Positions 6,043-28,267 of a stretch of DNA of 64,000 nt are shown one piece after another. The notes under the pieces are model-generated. The model did no database searches, was not told the DNA's origin, and saw only the letters and a program-made list of their open reading frames with translations. How positions within the stretch are numbered: the stretch's first letter is position 1; each line of letters starts with the position of its first letter. Source of the DNA: Demequina sp. NBRC 110051 (GTDB lineage Bacteria; Actinomycetota; Actinomycetes; Actinomycetales; Demequinaceae); NCBI RefSeq assembly GCF_002090055.1, contig NZ_BBRH01000020.1:1-64000 (forward strand). The letters run 5' to 3'. Position numbers and translations under genes: made by a program.

Positions 6043-7412
6043 GGACGCTCACGAGCACCTCATCTCAGCCGCAGCGACGCCGCGTCGCCCGACCGCTTCC
6101 GCATCGGGCCGCGGCGTCGCTTGCGTTGCCCGCGATCGCCTCCAACGTCGCCGTGCCCCTTGCCGGGCTCGTCGACACCGCGGCACTTGGACACTTCGCG
6201 ACCGCAACCGACCTGGGCGCGGTGGGGCTCGGCGCCGCCGTCATCTCGACGCTGTTTTGGATCTTCTCGTTCCTGCGCGCGGGCACCACGTCGCTGGTGG
6301 GACGCGCACTGGGCGCGGGCGACGGCGTGGGGGCCGTGCGGCACGTGCAGCGCGCGGGAGCCCTCGCGGGCGCGATGGCGCTCGCGTGGCTGATCCTCAT
6401 GTGGGCGATCGTGCCTGGCATCTTGCACATTTTGGCGCCGGACGGACCCGCTCGCGACGCCGCGCTCACCTACACCCTGATTCGCGGCCTGTCGCTGCCG
6501 GCACTCCTCGTCACGCTGATCGTCTCGGGCTACTTCATCGGAGCGAAGAACACCCGCATCCCGCTGCTGGTGGCTTCCGTGCAGGCGGCCGCGAACATCG
6601 TGCTGGACCTGGTCCTGGTCGGCGGCGCGGGCTGGGGAGCCGCGGGGGCCGCGTGGGGCACCTTCGGCTCCGAGTGGATCGGTGCTTCCCTCGCGGTCAT
6701 CATGCTGTGGCGCCGCCTCAGCCCGGAGCAACGCTCCACCGCCCGGGACTGGCGCGACGCGACCCTTCGCCGCGGCTGGGGAGCGCTCGCCCGGTTCAAT
6801 GGGGCGCTGATGGGCCGCACCGCGCTGCTGACCTCCGTCGTCACGTTCGTCGCGTCGATCGGTTCGCACTTTGGCCCCGAGATCCTCGCCGCCAACGCGA
6901 TCATGCTGCAGCTCATGAACGTCGCGTCCTACGCCCTCGACGGCTACGCGAATGCCGCCGAGGCGCTCGTCGCGCACTCCGCCGGCGCGGGCGACCTGCC
7001 TTCGCTGCATGCGGCCGTGCTGGCGTCGGCGATACCCATGGCCGTCATCGGCATCGGCCTCACCGCCGCGTACTGGCTGGGTCGCGACCTGATCCTCGCG
7101 GCCCTCACGAGCCTGCCCGCCGTGCGAGACGCCGCGACCGACTACTGGATATGGATCGCGCTGCTGCCGCTCCTGTCGTGGGGCGCCTACTGGCTCGACG
7201 GCGTCTTCCTTGGCGCGGGCCAGTCAGGTCTGATGTTCATCGCCATGGCGGTGTCCGTGCTGGGGGTCTTCGTGCCCGTGCTGCTGATCGGCGCCGCGAC
7301 GGTGGGCCTGTCGAATGGCTTGGTCTGGACCAGCTTCCTCACCCTCAATGTGGTGCGCCAGGTCACGTTGCTGGCGGCCTACCCGGCGCTGACCCGCCGC
7401 GTCGCCGCCTGA
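5970..7412 (+). CDS. MATE-family efflux transporter (DinF type)
   Basis: About 480 residues with some twelve hydrophobic segments, starting [27 protein letters not shown], the typical first MATE helix with its conserved Pro and Asp. The DinF branch exports drugs or metabolites by cation antiport in the cytoplasmic membrane. The start is a problem: the only in-frame ATG (5970) lies 73 bases inside leuD and gives an implausible charged leader. The next in-frame start codon, TTG at 6126, falls within the first membrane segment. AAGGA at 6043-6047 suggests initiation near 6050 on a non-standard codon. The hydrophobic core is intact and the substrate unknown. Confidence 0.88.
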
Positions 7413-7542
7413 CGCAGTATCGGATTGGCCCACGGTTGGGGCCACTGTGACGGGTGAGGAGCCTGTGACCCGCTCGCGGGTCACGCCGGGCAACATGCGT
7501 CACGAGTGTGGGCCAAACCGAAGTGGGGAGGGGCGGCATGGC

Positions 7543-8418
7543 ATGCTGGCGCGCATGGCCCGTGCCGTCGCGTCCCCCGCACCCGCGTCCCCTGCACCCG
7601 CGGCGCCCGCGTGGACGGGCGACGCCCGCGACTGGCTGCGCGTGGCCGCGGCCGCCCTGGTGTGCGGCTCGGCCATCCCGCTCTTCGCCCTGCACGTGCG
7701 CCCCGAGGGATACGTCCCGCTGATCGTGGGCCTGATCCTCGCCGTCGCCGTCGATCGCGCCCTCGCGCGCGACCTGGGCCTGATCGCGCTCGGCCAGGCC
7801 ATCATCTCGACCATCTCGCTGAGGGCCGACCTGTCCGACGCAGGCATGGCGCGCTTCACCCTCGCGCTAGGCCTCGCCGTGCTCGTGCCGTGGGCGCTGG
7901 ACCGCTGGGTCACCCGCCAGCGCATCATCACGTTCCCGGTCATGACGGGCCGGCGCTGGACCCGGGCGCAGTGGATCTACCTGGGCGTCGTCGTGGTGGC
8001 CGGCTACCTGATCCTGCCCTTTTACTTCCTCGGATCGGGGGCGTATCTCAATTGGCCCGACCTGTCCGGCGACACCGACATCGCCCGGCTCTTCGTCGGC
8101 GTCAACGCCGTCGGCCTGTGGGACGAACTGTTCTTCATCTGCACCGTCTTCGCCTTGCTGTGCCGCCACTTTCCGGTACCGCTGGCGAACGTCCTGCAGG
8201 CCATGGTGTTCGTGTCCTTCCTGTGGGAACTCGGGTACCGCGAGTGGGGCCCGGCCCTCACCATCCCGTTCGCTCTGGTCCAGGGGTGGATCTTCGCGCG
8301 CTTCAAGTCCCTCGGATACGTCCTTGCCGTCCATCTGCTCTTCGATGCAGTCGTCTTCGCGGTCCTCGTCCACGGCCACCACCCCGATCTGCTGAACGTG
8401 TTCGTGACGGCGCCGTGA
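7543..8418 (+). CDS. CPBP-like polytopic membrane protein
   Basis: A 291-residue membrane protein with about seven hydrophobic segments after an Ala/Pro-rich N-terminus. A segment reading WDELFFICTVFALLCRHF near residue 200 resembles CPBP (Abi/Rce1-like) motif EExxxR, but with DE in place of EE and without a clear FxxxH second motif. A late HLLFDAVVF helix could supply the third. Proteolytic activity is therefore doubtful. The ATG at 7543 is chosen because GGGGAGGGG lies upstream; other in-frame starts at 7447 and 7555 are less well placed. Stop overlaps the next gene by GTGA. Confidence 0.6.
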   Translation: MLARMARAVASPAPASPAPAAPAWTGDARDWLRVAAAALVCGSAIPLFALHVRPEGYVPLIVGLILAVAVDRALARDLGLIALGQAIISTISLRADLSDAGMARFTLALGLAVLVPWALDRWVTRQRIITFPVMTGRRWTRAQWIYLGVVVVAGYLILPFYFLGSGAYLNWPDLSGDTDIARLFVGVNAVGLWDELFFICTVFALLCRHFPVPLANVLQAMVFVSFLWELGYREWGPALTIPFALVQGWIFARFKSLGYVLAVHLLFDAVVFAVLVHGHHPDLLNVFVTAP

Positions 8419-22752: not shown

Positions 22753-24971
22753 GCGACCGGCTCGCCGAACCACTGAAGGCGGTGCTGGGTGCGCGGACCG
22801 CGGGCGGCCTGAGCAAGCTTGGTCTCACGACCGTCGGAGACCTGGTGCGCCACTATCCGCGCCGGTACGACTCGCCGGGCACCATGACCGACATGGGGGC
22901 GCTCACCGTGGGGGAGCACGTCACCGTGATGGCGCAGGTGCGTGAGGCGCGGGTGAGGTCCATGCGCTCGCGCGGCGGCGCCATGCTCGAGGCCGTGGTG
23001 ACGGACGGCACCGCCTCCCTCCAGCTGACCTTCTTCGCCAAGCGCCCCGGCGTGCTGCGCATGCATGAGGACAAGCTGCGCGCGGGACGCACGGGCCTGT
23101 TCACCGGCACCGTGGGGGAGTATCGCGGCCGTCGTCAGCTCACCCATCCCGATTACCTCATCGTGGGCGTCGACGCGGCCGACGAGGGCGAGGCGATGCT
23201 CGAGGCCTCCCGGCCCATCCCCATCTATCCGGCGTCGGCGGCGGTACCCACGTGGCGCATTGGCCGCTCCGTGCGGACGGTGCTCGACCCGCTCACCGAG
23301 GCGGACGTGCCCGACCCCCTGCCCGCGGCGCTGCGCGAAGAACGGGGCCTGCCCACGCTACTCGAGGCGTTGCGCCTGGTACACACGCCCGACGACGAGT
23401 CCGCCTACCGACGGGGCCGGGAACGCCTGCGCTTCGAGGAGGCCTTTGTGCTGCAAACCGCGCTGGCAAGGCGTCGCGCGGCGCATGCGGCGCTCACCTC
23501 CGTTCCGCGACCCGCGCGCTCCGGCGGGCTGCTCGACGCGATCGACGCGCGCCTTCCCTTCCCCCTGACCGGAGCGCAGGTGGAGGTGGGCCGCGAGATC
23601 TCGGCCGATCTCGATCGTTCGCGGCCCATGCTGCGGTTGCTGCAGGGCGATGTGGGTGCGGGCAAGACGGTCGTGGCGGTGCGTGCGATGGCGCAGGTCA
23701 TCGATGCCGGTGGTCAGGCGGCGCTGCTCGCCCCGACCGAGGTGCTCGCCGCACAGCACGCACGGTCGCTGAGGGACCTGCTGGGCCCACTCGCGGACGG
23801 CGGCATGCTCACCGGAGCCGAGGGCGCGACCCGGGTGGCGCTGCTGACGGGCTCGCTGGGTGCGACCGCGAAGAGGCAGGCGCTCGCGGAGGCCGCCTCG
23901 GGTGCCGCCGGCATCGTCGTGGGCACTCATGCGCTGCTAAGCGAGCACGTCCAGTTTGCGGACCTGGGCCTGGTGGTGGTCGACGAGCAGCATCGCTTTG
24001 GCGTCGAGCAACGCGATGCGCTGCGAGAGCGAGGCGACCATCCGCCCCACACGCTCGTCATGACGGCCACGCCCATTCCGCGCACGGTGGCGATGACGGT
24101 GTTTGGTGACCTGGAGACCTCGGTGCTCGGGGAGCGCCCTGCGGGGCGCGTCGAGGTCGTGACCCACGTGGTGCCGGCCGACAACGAGGCGTGGCTGAGG
24201 CGCACCTGGGCGCGGGCGCGCGAGGAGATCGACGCGGGTCGACGCGTCTACGTGGTGTGTCCGCGCATCGATGCGGACGAGCCAGAGCCGGCCGACGAGG
24301 GCGATGCGGGTGCGGTTGCCATGCTCGAGGGTGACACCGCGGCCGACGCGGCGGTGCCGTTGGCCTCGGTGGCGGCCACGCTGGAGGACCTCGCCGGCCG
24401 CCCGGAACTTGCTGGGGTGCGCATGGGGGCCATGCACGGACGCCTTGCGCCCGATGACAAGGACGCGGCGATGGCGGCCTTCGCGAACGGCGAGGCCCCT
24501 CTGCTGGTGTCGACCACGGTGATTGAGGTGGGCGTCGACGTGCCCCAGGCCACCATGATGGTGGTGCTCGACGCCGAGCGCTTCGGCATTTCGCAGCTCC
24601 ATCAGCTGCGTGGTCGCGTGGGGCGCTCCGACCTCCCGTCGCTGTGCCTGCTGGTCAGCCGCGCGGCGCCGGGGACTACGGCGCACGAGCGGCTCGATGC
24701 GCTCGCGGCCACGGCCGATGGGTTTGTCCTCGCCGAGAAGGACCTTGAGCTGCGCCGCGAGGGTGATGTGCTGGGCGCCTCGCAGTCGGGTGGGCGCTCG
24801 TCGCTGAGACTGCTGCGCGCGGTGCGAGACGCGCCTCTCATCGACGAGGCGCGCGCGCTCGCGGTCGCCGTGGTGGACGCGGACCCGTCGCTGACGGATC
24901 ACCCGGATCTCGATGCGGCCGTGGCCGCGTGGCTCGATCCCGAGCGAGAGGCCTTCCTCGAGCGCGGCTGA
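22749..24971 (+). CDS. recG: ATP-dependent DNA helicase RecG
   Basis: A 740-residue superfamily 2 helicase that remodels stalled replication forks and Holliday junctions. An N-terminal OB/wedge domain (about 1-200) precedes the helicase core: Walker A QGDVGAGKTVVA, motif II VVDEQHRFGVEQR, motif III TATPIPRT, and motif VI QLRGRVGRS. GTG start overlapping the upstream stop by four bases. In related genomes rsmD usually follows closely; here a 2.7 kb export locus lies between. Confidence 0.95.
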   Translation: MSDRLAEPLKAVLGARTAGGLSKLGLTTVGDLVRHYPRRYDSPGTMTDMGALTVGEHVTVMAQVREARVRSMRSRGGAMLEAVVTDGTASLQLTFFAKRPGVLRMHEDKLRAGRTGLFTGTVGEYRGRRQLTHPDYLIVGVDAADEGEAMLEASRPIPIYPASAAVPTWRIGRSVRTVLDPLTEADVPDPLPAALREERGLPTLLEALRLVHTPDDESAYRRGRERLRFEEAFVLQTALARRRAAHAALTSVPRPARSGGLLDAIDARLPFPLTGAQVEVGREISADLDRSRPMLRLLQGDVGAGKTVVAVRAMAQVIDAGGQAALLAPTEVLAAQHARSLRDLLGPLADGGMLTGAEGATRVALLTGSLGATAKRQALAEAASGAAGIVVGTHALLSEHVQFADLGLVVVDEQHRFGVEQRDALRERGDHPPHTLVMTATPIPRTVAMTVFGDLETSVLGERPAGRVEVVTHVVPADNEAWLRRTWARAREEIDAGRRVYVVCPRIDADEPEPADEGDAGAVAMLEGDTAADAAVPLASVAATLEDLAGRPELAGVRMGAMHGRLAPDDKDAAMAAFANGEAPLLVSTTVIEVGVDVPQATMMVVLDAERFGISQLHQLRGRVGRSDLPSLCLLVSRAAPGTTAHERLDALAATADGFVLAEKDLELRREGDVLGASQSGGRSSLRLLRAVRDAPLIDEARALAVAVVDADPSLTDHPDLDAAVAAWLDPEREAFLERG

Positions 24972-25024: not shown

Positions 25025-25066
25025 TATATTAAAAGCGTGGCCCCGTGCCCGAGGCCACGCGTGGCC
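25025..25066. promoter_or_regulatory. AT-rich promoter-like box and hairpin before the SipW locus
   Basis: TATATT (25025-25030) stands in a short AT-rich island, the most A/T-rich stretch nearby. Immediately after it GCGTGGCC (25035-25042) pairs with GGCCACGC (25053-25060), and GGCCACGCGTGGCC (25053-25066) is itself palindromic. Transcription from this box would place the hairpin in the leader of the gene at 25101. No good -35 was found. Confidence 0.45.
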
Positions 25067-25100: not shown

Positions 25101-25649
25101 ATGACCGACCGTGACTCGCGATCGCTGAGGCGCGACCGCGCCAAACTCGTCCTCGCGGGAATTGCTGTGGCGGGCATCGGTGCCGCTGTGACGACCGCCG
25201 CGTGGACCGACGACGTGTGGTTCAGCGCCGAGGCCGAGGCTGCGACGTTTGATCTCCAAGGTCGTGTGGAGCCTGACGGCGCGTGGCTCGATGAAGGCAT
25301 TGACTCGACGGACTCGACAATCGATGGCGAGGATGTCGTCATCGAGATTCCCGCGGATACGTTCGTGGGCCTGGTGCCCGGCTCGAGTGTCGACGTCGAA
25401 CTCGGGCTCCTCAACGCGGGGACGTCGGACATCGACCTCGCGACTCCCGTGGCGCAGGACCTGCTCGGTGCCATCTTCACCGGCACCGATCCCGCGAGCG
25501 TCACCATCGGGGCATTGGGTGCCACCACGCTCGCTCCCGACGACACCACTACCTTCACCGTGACAGTCTCGACGGACGACACCTGGCCCGAGACCTACAT
25601 CAACACCTCGGGGACTTTCTCCGTCCTCGTCGTCGGCACCGCGAGCTGA
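25101..25649 (+). CDS. SipW-type alternate-signal exported protein (TasA/CalY-like class)
   Basis: A 182-residue exported protein. After an Arg-rich start and a hydrophobic helix (about residues 14-33) comes AAWTDDVWFSAEAEAATFDLQG, the A-[FW]-x-D...F-x-x-G pattern typical of substrates of SipW-type signal peptidases. In Bacillus such substrates (TasA) form biofilm fibres. The mature part is acidic and Thr/Ser-rich, looks all-beta, and has no Cys. Strong ribosome site AGGGGAAG. First gene of a four-gene operon that includes its probable peptidase. Fibre formation is inference. Confidence 0.75.
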   Translation: MTDRDSRSLRRDRAKLVLAGIAVAGIGAAVTTAAWTDDVWFSAEAEAATFDLQGRVEPDGAWLDEGIDSTDSTIDGEDVVIEIPADTFVGLVPGSSVDVELGLLNAGTSDIDLATPVAQDLLGAIFTGTDPASVTIGALGATTLAPDDTTTFTVTVSTDDTWPETYINTSGTFSVLVVGTAS

Positions 25650-25671
25650 CCCTCGCTCTACGCGGCTGGCG

Positions 25672-26211
25672 ATGATCCGGATCTTGCGCGCGCTCGGCGG
25701 CGCGGCCCTGTGGGCCGCCGCCGCCCTTGGCGTGCTCACATGTCTGGTGTGGCTCGCCACTGCCGCAGGCTGGATCAAGCCGTTGATCGTCGTTTCGGGT
25801 TCCATGGAGCCCGAGATTCCGACAGGAGCGCTGATCGTGGATCGCCCGCTCGACGTCGCCGAGGTAGCGGTCGGCGACATCGTGTCGCTGCCGTCGACGG
25901 TGACTGGGGAGCTGGTCACTCACCGCGTGGTCGAAATCGCGTCGCACGGTGACGCCGTCGCGCTCACGCTGCGCGGCGACGCCAACCCGGTCGACGATCC
26001 CGAGCCGTATTACATGGACGGAGACATCTGGGAGGTCGCGGCCGTGGTTCCTGGGTTGGGCGAGGTCATCGCGGACATCAGTCGCCCGGGCGTGGTGATC
26101 CCCGCCATGATTGCGATCGGTGCGCTGCTTGGTCTGTCCCTTCTACGCGACCCTGCCCCGAGTCGCGACCCATCGGCGGAAGCTTCGAGCGCCGCAGGAG
26201 GCGCGCCGTGA
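25672..26211 (+). CDS. sipW: Signal peptidase I of the SipW/ER type
   Basis: A 179-residue membrane peptidase with hydrophobic segments near both ends. The catalytic Ser is in VVSGSMEPEIPTGALIV. The general base position reads LVTHRVVEI, with His instead of the Lys of ordinary bacterial SPase I, which is the hallmark of SipW/ER-type enzymes. RGDANPVDDPEP completes the family pattern. It lies between two genes with alternate signal peptides, its likely substrates. Its stop overlaps the next start (GTGA). Confidence 0.88.
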   Translation: MIRILRALGGAALWAAAALGVLTCLVWLATAAGWIKPLIVVSGSMEPEIPTGALIVDRPLDVAEVAVGDIVSLPSTVTGELVTHRVVEIASHGDAVALTLRGDANPVDDPEPYYMDGDIWEVAAVVPGLGEVIADISRPGVVIPAMIAIGALLGLSLLRDPAPSRDPSAEASSAAGGAP

Positions 26212-26804
26212 GTCGCGTCGCGCAGGCCGTTGCCGCTGCCCTGATCGCTGTCCTCTTGGCCGCCTGCGCCGCCCTTGCTGGATCCATCGGGACTACCCGT
26301 GCGGAGGTCGATGTCGCCGTCGACGTGGACCTCGGTCTGGTCCTGCCAGGGGAGACGGTGACGCGGTCCCATGCCGTCGAGATCCCCGAGCTCGCCACCG
26401 TGGTGCGCTCCGATTGGGTCAGGCGTGACGGTCTTGCCCAGGAGATCGCGTGGGACATCCAGTTGTGCGGCGACGGCCAGTGCCAGGACGTCGCGCCGCC
26501 GCTGACGGGCGGACGCTTTGCACCAGGCAGTTACACCCTGGAGGTGGCGGCCACGCTGCCCGAGACGGTCTCCGCTGGAACCGGATCGGCGCTTGGTGTC
26601 GTGACGCTGCAGTCCGAGGACACGGCCGTCGGGGGAGACGGCGGAGTCGACAGCGAAGGTGGTGGCACGGGGGTGCCCTTGCCTGTCACCGGAGGCACTG
26701 TGCCCTGGGCAGTGGTCGCGCTCGCGGGCGGCGCCCTCGCGGCGGGCGGTTTCGCGATAGCCCTCGCGCGTCCTCGTCGTGAGAGAGAAGGTGTGTCCTC
26801 GTGA
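26208..26804 (+). CDS. LPxTG-anchored protein of the SipW locus
   Basis: A 198-residue surface protein. The N-terminal signal ends with LLAAC, which could be a lipobox or a plain signal peptide. A beta-rich domain with one Cys pair (LCGDGQCQ) follows, then a Gly-rich linker. LPVTGG, a hydrophobic helix and RPRRERE form a complete sortase cell-wall sorting signal. No sortase is encoded in the window. It may serve as the wall anchor for the two SipW substrates. Overlaps both neighbours by four bases, so the operon is translationally coupled. Confidence 0.7.
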   Translation: MSRVAQAVAAALIAVLLAACAALAGSIGTTRAEVDVAVDVDLGLVLPGETVTRSHAVEIPELATVVRSDWVRRDGLAQEIAWDIQLCGDGQCQDVAPPLTGGRFAPGSYTLEVAATLPETVSAGTGSALGVVTLQSEDTAVGGDGGVDSEGGGTGVPLPVTGGTVPWAVVALAGGALAAGGFAIALARPRREREGVSS

Positions 26805-27670
26805 ACCGCCGTCCGCGCCTCGCGCTCGTCGCCGCCATGTTCGGCCTTGGCGCCCTCGCGGCGGTTCCGGTTGTCACACAGGCGGCCTGGACAGACGACG
26901 CCTGGTTCTCGGCGACGGCCGCGGCGGGCGACTGGAGCGAGGGCGGCGGTGGCGGGGGCGGCGGCGGTGGCATCGACCCGGGCGACAATACAGAGATCAT
27001 CGACATCACCTGGACCGTGTCGTCACCGCTGTCCAGTTGCGCGATCGTCGAGGTCACCACCACGTCCGACACCCCGGTGGAATGGTCCATCACCGTGGAT
27101 CCCGACGAACGGCCGTGGAACCACGATGATCCGTCGCAAATCCAGGTCAACAACGGTGGTCAAATCGTCGAGCCTCGAACCTCGCCCTTGGTCATCGTGG
27201 GCAACACGGATACCTCGGGCGTGTTCAGCGAGTACAGCAACAACACCCCGATCCAGTCAGGGCAGGTCGCGAAGGTCGAGGTGTGCGGCTACAACAACGA
27301 GGTTCCCCCTCCAGAGCCAGACAACGGTCAGTGGTACACCTGGTCGCTGTCCGCCCCCGTGACGAGCGCGGGCCAGGTGTGCTCGACCCTCACGGTGGAG
27401 GGCCTCATCGACGAAGCAGAGGATCCCTTCTTCTATGGATGGGGTATCACGGTCGACATCCAGCCGGTGATTGACGCCTATCTCGCGTCGGGCGCGACGG
27501 TCTACTACGTGAGCTCCAACCCATCGTCCTCGTCTGGCTACGAGTTCACCTTCACACAGCAGGCCCCGCCCAACGAGAACCTGATTTACATCCAGTCCGG
27601 GACCGCCATGGCGCTGCAGGGTAACGACGTGCAGACCCTCGAGGTGTGCGTGCACGGCGTCCTGCCCTGA
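26801..27670 (+). CDS. SipW-type alternate-signal exported protein, second
   Basis: A 289-residue exported protein. A hydrophobic helix (about residues 7-28) runs into QAAWTDDAWFSATAAAGDW, nearly the same boundary motif as in the first gene of the locus (AAWTDDVWFSA). Ten consecutive Gly (48-57) form a flexible linker to a beta-rich, Thr/Ser/Asn-rich domain with four Cys (SSCAIV, VCGYN, QVCSTL, VCVHG), perhaps two disulfides. No anchor is present. The shared boundary argues that both proteins are processed by the adjacent SipW. The function of the domain is not recognised. Confidence 0.7.
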   Translation: MNRRPRLALVAAMFGLGALAAVPVVTQAAWTDDAWFSATAAAGDWSEGGGGGGGGGGIDPGDNTEIIDITWTVSSPLSSCAIVEVTTTSDTPVEWSITVDPDERPWNHDDPSQIQVNNGGQIVEPRTSPLVIVGNTDTSGVFSEYSNNTPIQSGQVAKVEVCGYNNEVPPPEPDNGQWYTWSLSAPVTSAGQVCSTLTVEGLIDEAEDPFFYGWGITVDIQPVIDAYLASGATVYYVSSNPSSSSGYEFTFTQQAPPNENLIYIQSGTAMALQGNDVQTLEVCVHGVLP

Positions 27671-27691: not shown

Positions 27692-28267
27692 GTGACCAGG
27701 ATCATCGCGGGCGAGCTCGGCGGGCGTCGCCTCGCCGTTCCACCGAAGGGCACGCGTCCCACCACCGATCGGGTGCGCGAGGCGCTGTTTAGCAGGCTCG
27801 ATCATGCCGATGCGCTGCGTGGCACGCGGGTGCTTGACATCTTCGCCGGCTCCGGTGCGCTCGGGATCGAGGCCCTCAGCAGGGGCGCCGTGAGTGCCGT
27901 GTTCGTCGAAGCGAGCACGGCCGCCGCGCGGGTATTGCAGCAGAACCTGCGCGACCTCGGCCTTGCCACCCGCGCCCAGGTGGCGCGCGAGAAGGCCCTG
28001 CCCTACCTCGCCCGCGCCGCAGGCGAGTTCGACCTGGTCCTCATCGACCCGCCCTACGACCTTCCCGCCGCCGAGGTAGACGCGGTGCTCGCGGCCCTCC
28101 CGCCCCTGCTCGCCCCCGACGCCCTCGTGGTGCTCGAGGGCTCCACACGCGCGGTCGTCCCCACCTGGCCCGCCACCCTCGACGCCTACGACGTCAAGGA
28201 CTACGGCGAGACCCGGCTGCACTATGCCGACGTGCGGCCCGAGCAACCCGGTAGCGTCGAGCCATGA
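27692..28267 (+). CDS. rsmD: 16S rRNA (guanine(966)-N(2))-methyltransferase
   Basis: A 191-residue SAM-dependent methyltransferase of the RsmD family, modifying G966 of 16S rRNA. The SAM-binding VLDIFAGSGALGIEALSRGA and the catalytic DPPYDLP motif are present, with the usual RPTTDRVREALFS segment near the N-terminus. GTG start with TACGCT seven bases before it and no ribosome site: probably leaderless. It overlaps coaD by four bases, the standard pair. Confidence 0.93.
   Translation: MTRIIAGELGGRRLAVPPKGTRPTTDRVREALFSRLDHADALRGTRVLDIFAGSGALGIEALSRGAVSAVFVEASTAAARVLQQNLRDLGLATRAQVAREKALPYLARAAGEFDLVLIDPPYDLPAAEVDAVLAALPPLLAPDALVVLEGSTRAVVPTWPATLDAYDVKDYGETRLHYADVRPEQPGSVEP

Follow-up and report, generated by a model that had tools for sequence, protein, structure and literature searches.

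A four-gene SipW locus of Demequina that may encode a wall-tethered, TasA-like surface assembly

Why is the predicted mature N-terminus the same in two exported proteins whose mature domains are unrelated? The question is raised by a compact locus of four genes in Demequina sp. NBRC 110051, found in a 64,000-nucleotide stretch of contig NZ_BBRH01000020.1 (the window; the contig is C20 of a 2.75 Mb genome that is 99.94% complete). The genes encode, in this order, an exported protein called substrate 1, a SipW-type signal peptidase, a protein with an LPVTG sorting signal, and a second exported protein, substrate 2. The answer proposed here, to which we give an even chance of being right, is that the locus encodes a TasA-like surface assembly, matured by SipW and tethered to the wall, which would function in the manner of the tapA-sipW-tasA system but with a sortase substrate of its own. 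Readable in the sequence itself are the gene set with its overlaps, the predicted signals, the sharing and co-variation of a boundary motif (the tag), the sorting signal, the recurrence of the unit in other families and the exchange of the substrate 2 module (the head). The features are the following:

25101–25649, plus strand: substrate 1 (P0001, 182 residues), with a SipW-type signal, one predicted β-sandwich domain and no Cys
25197–25229, plus strand: AAWTDDVWFSA, signal end and predicted mature start of substrate 1, from residue 33 of P0001
25672–26211, plus strand: SipW-type signal peptidase (P0002, 179 residues), with Ser44/His84 and a C-terminal hydrophobic segment, identified by TIGR02228 and alignment
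26208–26804, plus strand: LPVTG protein (P0003, 198 residues, GTG start), with a signal, a small domain containing C87/C92 and a sorting signal
26679–26693, plus strand: the sorting-signal motif LPVTG, residues 158–162 of P0003, xxxTG in aligned relatives
26801–27670, plus strand: substrate 2 (P0004, 289 residues, GTG start), with the tag, a Gly linker and two predicted β-sandwich domains of two Cys each
26882–26914, plus strand: AAWTDDAWFSA, signal end and predicted mature start of substrate 2, from residue 28 of P0004
26942–26971, plus strand: ten-Gly linker, residues 48–57 of P0004, of variable length and absent in some relatives

The four genes fill positions 25101–27670 of the plus strand; the previous gene ends at 24971 and the next one starts at 27692. 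All four reading frames are present with the content and the tight coupling that the original prediction gave them, and four-base overlaps join the SipW gene to the LPVTG gene and the LPVTG gene to substrate 2. The boundary AAWTDDxWFSA is indeed common to the two substrates. Its first part, AAWTDD, occurs as DNA (GCNGCNTGGACNGAYGAY) exactly twice in the genome, in the genes of substrate 1 and substrate 2, and a chance motif was rejected on the basis of these two matches versus 0 for the pattern read backwards. The signal regions of the two substrate profiles align at 97.5% over 46 columns. Compared to the TIGR04088 cut-off of 19, the signal of P0001 scores 17.0 bits by hmmscan and 20.5 bits in the genome search, and that of P0004 scores 13.4 bits in the genome search; the model matches 11 of the 23 members of the substrate 1 alignment at E ≤ 0.1.

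The peptidase encoded between the two substrates passes TIGR02228 with 70.6 bits (cut-off 51.85). Ser44 and His84, which we take to be the catalytic positions, are invariant in 8/8 aligned SipW sequences, and for this reason the label "His-type" used in the original prediction is correct. By these sequence criteria P0002 is an endoplasmic reticulum/archaeal-type (Ser/His) SipW signal peptidase. It does not reach the Bacillus SipW equivalog NF046067 (51.3 bits, cut-off 190). A second SipW-type locus is found on contig C6 of the same genome, at ca 224.5–226.4 kb (L004:4506-6408). It consists of a 152-residue exported-looking protein and, after it, a 474-residue protein whose S26 peptidase domain scores 57.6 bits with TIGR02228 (over cut-off). 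The latter protein has a long Cys-containing C-terminal extension, and the end of this extension looks, by eye, like the second tagged proteins of Microbacterium.

In the mechanism that we propose, Sec would export the LPVTG protein along with the two tagged ones, as their signals indicate, and SipW would remove the two tagged signals, thereby exposing the same N-terminus, AWTDDxWFSA, on both. In the TasA fibre, the N-terminal strand of each subunit completes the next subunit, and the TapA N-terminus resembles this donor strand, as described in the excerpted text of PMC9674648 and also of PMC10151520. The TasA structure 8aur_A begins AFNDIKSKDATFASGTLDL (AFNDIK...) and 6qay_A begins AFHDIETFDV, and the stretches that correspond to them by eye in the present locus are AWTDDVWFSAEAEAATFDL and AWTDDAWFSATAAAGDW. 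Since the corresponding TasA stretch is the donor strand and the TapA N-terminus resembles it, the tag is most likely an exchangeable β-strand that would become the N-terminal strand of both substrates. Substrate 1 would then be the stalk or repeating subunit, and substrate 2 a flexibly linked, probably disulfide-bonded binding head. Finally, a class E sortase would attach the LPVTG protein to the wall, where it would hold the assembly.

We now consider substrate 1 and its comparison with TasA. Its structure model, built from 23 sequences, is a single β-sandwich with a mean pLDDT (predicted local distance difference test) of 79.4, and 97 of the 182 residues are at 90 or above. When the profile of the mature part is compared to that of ten actinobacterial proteins positive for the TasA-type family M73, the score is 42.0 (89%), and 0/60 column shuffles are as high. 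The same ten proteins give 88.6% with TasA. The original prediction that the mature domains match no family thus holds for P0004, which no Pfam family matches, and for P0001 as far as matches over cut-off are concerned, but the mature part of P0001 is profile-related to TasA/M73.

Substrate 2 has the ten consecutive Gly, from residue 48, and the four Cys, at 80, 162, 194 and 283, that were described for it. These Cys are kept in 7/7, 7/8, 7/7 and 7/7, respectively, of the relatives with a letter at the position. The structure model, based on 8 sequences only, has two β-sandwich domains with a mean pLDDT of 72.7, and we infer one disulfide per domain. The two halves share their layout, but the hhalign comparison between them gives only 1.5% (0/60 shuffles as high), so it is the model and the spacing of the Cys that indicate two domains, and an internal repeat was rejected. 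A two-domain substrate 2 is also found in a genome of another family (f9; L191; 98.2% over 206 columns), and a distant relative with two domains in Agromyces (20% identity). In a further f9 genome, the second tagged protein (L190:2621-3247) is instead a Ricin_B lectin, with 55.2 bits compared to a cut-off of 29. Among seven further second tagged proteins scanned from other genera, none passes a Pfam cut-off. That the modules change while the tag stays similar is in keeping with display or adhesion.

Such modules could also belong to a non-polymeric adhesin set, in which the tagged proteins are monomeric or lectin-like polysaccharide binders, the LPVTG protein is a docking receptor or an independent wall protein, and SipW is simply their dedicated peptidase. 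This is the strongest of the alternatives, and we judge it to be a serious contender that is nonetheless somewhat improbable. The ricin-B lectin speaks for it, and so does the fact that polymerisation finds no evidence in the sequence data. Binding modules borne by chitinases and cellulases are among the low-scoring structural neighbours of P0004 and point the same way, as a lead only, the top rows of that list being clathrin-adaptor mu subunits. The adhesin set gives no reason why proteins whose mature domains are unrelated should have residues near and beyond the predicted cleavage site in common, with co-variation between them, nor why substrate 1 is related to M73.

The co-variation of the tags was evaluated by permutation over the 22 loci with both tags available. 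For the first 12 positions, 154 identities are found within loci compared to 134.5 expected (p = 5e-5). By segment, positions 1–5 give p = 0.011 and positions 6–12 p = 0.0003, and the 8 Demequina loci alone give p = 0.008. The pairs that stand out are ANLND/AHLND in D. silvatica and AAWND, present in both proteins of L190. As phylogeny is not controlled, the co-variation of the two tags within loci is only suggestive. One could argue that the tag is a SipW recognition signal and has no role after cleavage. SipW-cognate signals are indeed a described class (TIGR04088), and a single protease per genome would make both substrates co-vary. The matching at positions 6–12, however, extends into the predicted mature part, with the reservation that the cleavage site is inferred as well, and we regard recognition alone as an unlikely explanation.

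As for the LPVTG protein, P0003 has a hydrophobic N-terminal signal and a small domain with two invariant Cys (C87/C92), and it ends, as originally predicted, with LPVTG, a hydrophobic stretch and an Arg-rich tail. In the aligned relatives the sorting signal reads xxxTG in 13/13, with Leu in 12/13. P0003 itself does not reach the cut-off of 27 of NF058582 (25.9 bits), and 11 of the 13 relatives match this model at E ≤ 0.1. The small domain gives 12.9% with substrate 1 in one comparison and 14.2% (0/60 shuffles) in another, and 3.0% with M73.

The genome encodes three sortases by PF04203, on contigs C7, C10 and C11. Their classes are assigned from the matched fragments only, the best models being class E with 169.1 bits (cut-off 160), class F with 176.1 bits (cut-off 166) and class F with 118.1 bits (below cut-off). 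Class E sortases prefer LAXTG-like signals, which would suit the mixture of LPxTG, LAxTG and LSxTG among the P0003 relatives. The class E enzyme of this genome could act on LPVTG. That substrate 1 is the pilin of a sortase-polymerised pilus, as the presence of an LPXTG-type protein in the operon might suggest, is extremely improbable and largely excluded, as the sorting signal is on the LPVTG protein only and none of the three PF04203 matches, all on other contigs, is of class C.

We turn next to the question of whether the four genes belong together. The profile of P0003 was searched against 396 genomes of the order, 147 of which match at E ≤ 0.001. Only matches of at least 78 bits (n = 11) were counted; the other listed matches have at most 34.7 bits and are mostly to the sorting signal. 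These 11 near-full-length relatives are five from Demequina and six others, and in 11/11 cases SipW and one or more tagged genes are their neighbours. The search model includes six of them as rows or draws on the same genomes (G000, G061, G015, G036, G022 and G296, an identical protein), and the five that are independent of it (G397, G168, G389, G281, G290) all belong to f9. Near-full-length relatives of the LPVTG protein do not occur alone. At one low-scoring match that was inspected (L195), a SipW or tagged gene was absent.

Within a sample of 59 relatives including the present genome, 37 are Demequina (this one and 36 others), and all four genes are present in 5/37, namely in the present genome, G015, G022, G029 and G036. 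In G022, substrate 2 is a short protein with a weak match (E 2.6e-4). A search of 149 genomes with P0004 adds G061 and G063, which brings the other Demequina with the full set to six. In G063 (D. litorisediminis, L072) substrate 2 is broken, and since recG, a DAK-like gene, fpg and other genes of this stretch are also in pieces, sequencing errors rather than gene loss are suggested. D. silvatica (G025) has substrate 1 and SipW, and a single tagged protein rich in Pro, Ser and Thr (L083, ca 6281–8368) replaces the LPxTG protein and substrate 2; the two tags of this locus read xLND instead of AWTD. For the 37 Demequina, the co-occurrence of the LPVTG protein with substrate 1 gives a Fisher p = 1.4e-5, uncorrected for phylogeny. 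Enzymatic domains and missing co-occurrence, the two outcomes to which the original prediction was exposed, were thus not found: the genes co-occur, and the family scans assign no domain to an enzyme family.

The locus lies between two genes that we take, from their sequences, to be recG and rsmD. This position was originally seen as an interruption of their usual neighbourhood. The location is correct, but in Demequina the gap varies from ca 30 nucleotides to more than 4 kb, which makes the interruption unremarkable, and recG–rsmD was rejected as a meaningful position. The cluster adjoins rsmD in seven other Demequina, with recG on the other side in five of the fetched stretches, those of G029 and G025 being the exceptions. 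Among 30 rsmD loci, all from Demequina, 6 have cluster genes (the present one included), 8 have recG within 1.5 kb upstream and no cluster, and 16 have neither within the flank. For other Demequina, a pattern search of eight regions located before rsmD gave no SipW or tagged gene. In L067, L069 and L070, frames of ca 430–480 residues, presumably of the N-acylglucosamine 2-epimerase type, are located upstream of substrate 1, and L069 also has a transposase-like frame. The gap seems to collect genes in Demequina. In the window, a GC-rich inverted repeat is located at 25035–25060, 41 bases before substrate 1, and is terminator-like on the minus strand. It was rejected as an operator or terminator, as it is less perfect in the nearest relative and the folding of the upstream RNA is not better than that of shuffles (z −0.48).

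Outside Demequina, relatives of the four-gene unit occur in several actinobacterial families. Scanning genomes with the SipW alignment yielded 24 loci, of which 7 are from Demequina, 2 from Firmicutes and 15 from others. According to the record names, these 15 are nine from Microbacterium and one each from Agromyces, Plantibacter, Leucobacter, Scrofimicrobium, Leifsonia and Planococcus. The last of these (L085, Planococcus sp. APC 4015) resembles Microbacterium both in its protein sequences and in the order of its genes, and is probably a misnamed or contaminated assembly. Substrate 1 has a relative in 14 of the 15 loci, all but that of Leifsonia, directly before SipW in 12 of them; in Plantibacter and Agromyces an LxxTG protein is found between the two. 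At least 10 of the 15 have a second tagged protein. No rsmD match is found in any of the 15, and the only recG match (L091) is weak, with 25–31% identity; the unit is therefore independent of the recG–rsmD position. In L086, L088, L090, L091, L095, L097 and L188, all Microbacterium-type, a response-regulator-like gene, recognised by motif only, is located downstream of the tagged genes.

It is important to point out that a number of results weigh against the proposed assembly. P0001 does not match Pfam M73 (PF12389), which is also absent among the families listed for the members of the substrate 1 alignment (0/23), and the comparison of substrate 1 with TasA alone gives 4.8% (0/50 shuffles as high). 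Because 4/23 substrate 1 relatives matched CARDB, we built a control profile of 16 CARDB domains from the same order, and the local comparison with it also gives 33.9 (73%), which weakens the TasA claim. Without the first strand, the values for M73 and CARDB are 40.7 and 29.8 in local mode and 77% and 7.5% in global mode, while the M73 and CARDB profiles give 20.1 (2.9%) with each other. Of the two profiles, M73 is thus the one nearer to substrate 1, but the margin is modest. The fold matches are all weak, the best Z being 7.1 for P0001 and 7.9 for P0004, within the range in which the tool warns of chance. With P0001, Foldseek places the TasA fibre 8aur_A at rank 44 (E 0.11, a weak match), and in a second fold search this structure is not among the 50 matches listed. 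Given the modest M73 margin, the result for TasA alone and the Foldseek value, we term substrate 1 TasA-like only, and it is, judged by these comparisons, not a member of the TasA family.

A relation of substrate 2 to TapA above shuffles was not found: TIGR04087 matched one of eight relatives, with E 0.33 only, and in the comparison with mature TapA 13/50 shuffles reach the score of each half. Nor does the LPVTG domain have a relation to mature TapA above shuffles (1/50 as high). The anchored protein is missing in D. silvatica, and an LxxTG protein was identified in only 6/15 of the other-genus loci (L085, L086, L088, L089, L091, L092). In at least three Microbacterium loci (L084, L090, L098) the second tagged gene comes directly after SipW, so the anchored partner is not universal, which counts against its being indispensable. 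The tag test, which ignores phylogeny, gives p = 0.076 for the 14 loci beyond Demequina. Finally, fibre formation, polymerisation and protein–protein contact are backed by no direct result. The original idea of a TasA-fibre analogue is therefore retained in part: the genes co-occur, substrate 1 is related to M73 and a class E sortase is encoded, while its polymerisation part is unsupported and the PF12389, TasA, CARDB and anchor results speak against it.

If the wall-tethered assembly is formed, one can speculate further that it is an actinobacterial filament that joins TasA-like donor-strand assembly with covalent sortase anchoring, in which one SipW-exposed strand serves both stalk and head, the co-translated LPXTG protein provides the base in the wall, and different binding modules (double β-sandwich, ricin-B lectin or other) can take the place of the head. 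This more specific picture is tentative, and we hold it to be rather doubtful. Should the locus form a fibre, it would be a system of the SipW/TasA-like kind that has a covalent wall anchor built in and binding heads that can be exchanged. The locus also offers a testable reason for the same predicted mature N-terminus on two exported proteins with unrelated mature domains.

In the open-licence full-text literature no study of such a locus was found, most subscription papers being outside this scope. The closest known systems are compared with it here. The tapA-sipW-tasA operon of B. subtilis has, like the present locus, a dedicated SipW and two substrates, and in each system the mature N-termini of the two are alike. 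For that operon, too, the excerpted part of PMC10151520 describes an overlap of stop and start codons adjoining sipW. The differences are that substrate 1 fails the M73 profile, that no relation of substrate 2 to TapA was found, and that the parts considered of the B. subtilis sources name no counterpart of the LPVTG protein. The sipW-tasA/calY/capP system of B. cereus shares SipW, two secreted partners and an accessory protein at the cell wall; in the sections used of PMC13082335 its authors call it sortase-independent, whereas the Demequina locus has a gene with a sorting signal.

The sipW-bsaABCRSD operon of C. perfringens has SipW-dependent secretion in common with the present locus, and the protein secreted there polymerises. 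According to the excerpts of PMC7395162, the operon has two-component regulators, and the response-regulator-like gene that follows in several Microbacterium loci recalls BsaR; BsaA is described as lacking an LPXTG motif, and deletion of the neighbouring srtB as having no effect. Another known kind is that of the actinobacterial M73/TasA-type loci, with PF12389 passed in 21 of 198 genomes of the order; among the loci listed, at least 9 have a SipW-like gene next to that of the M73 protein. They share with the present locus this neighbouring gene and the profile relation to substrate 1 (89%), and they differ in that their proteins pass PF12389, which substrate 1 does not. In G168 (f9; L143, L160, L191) both types are present on different contigs of one genome, and they are therefore separate systems there.

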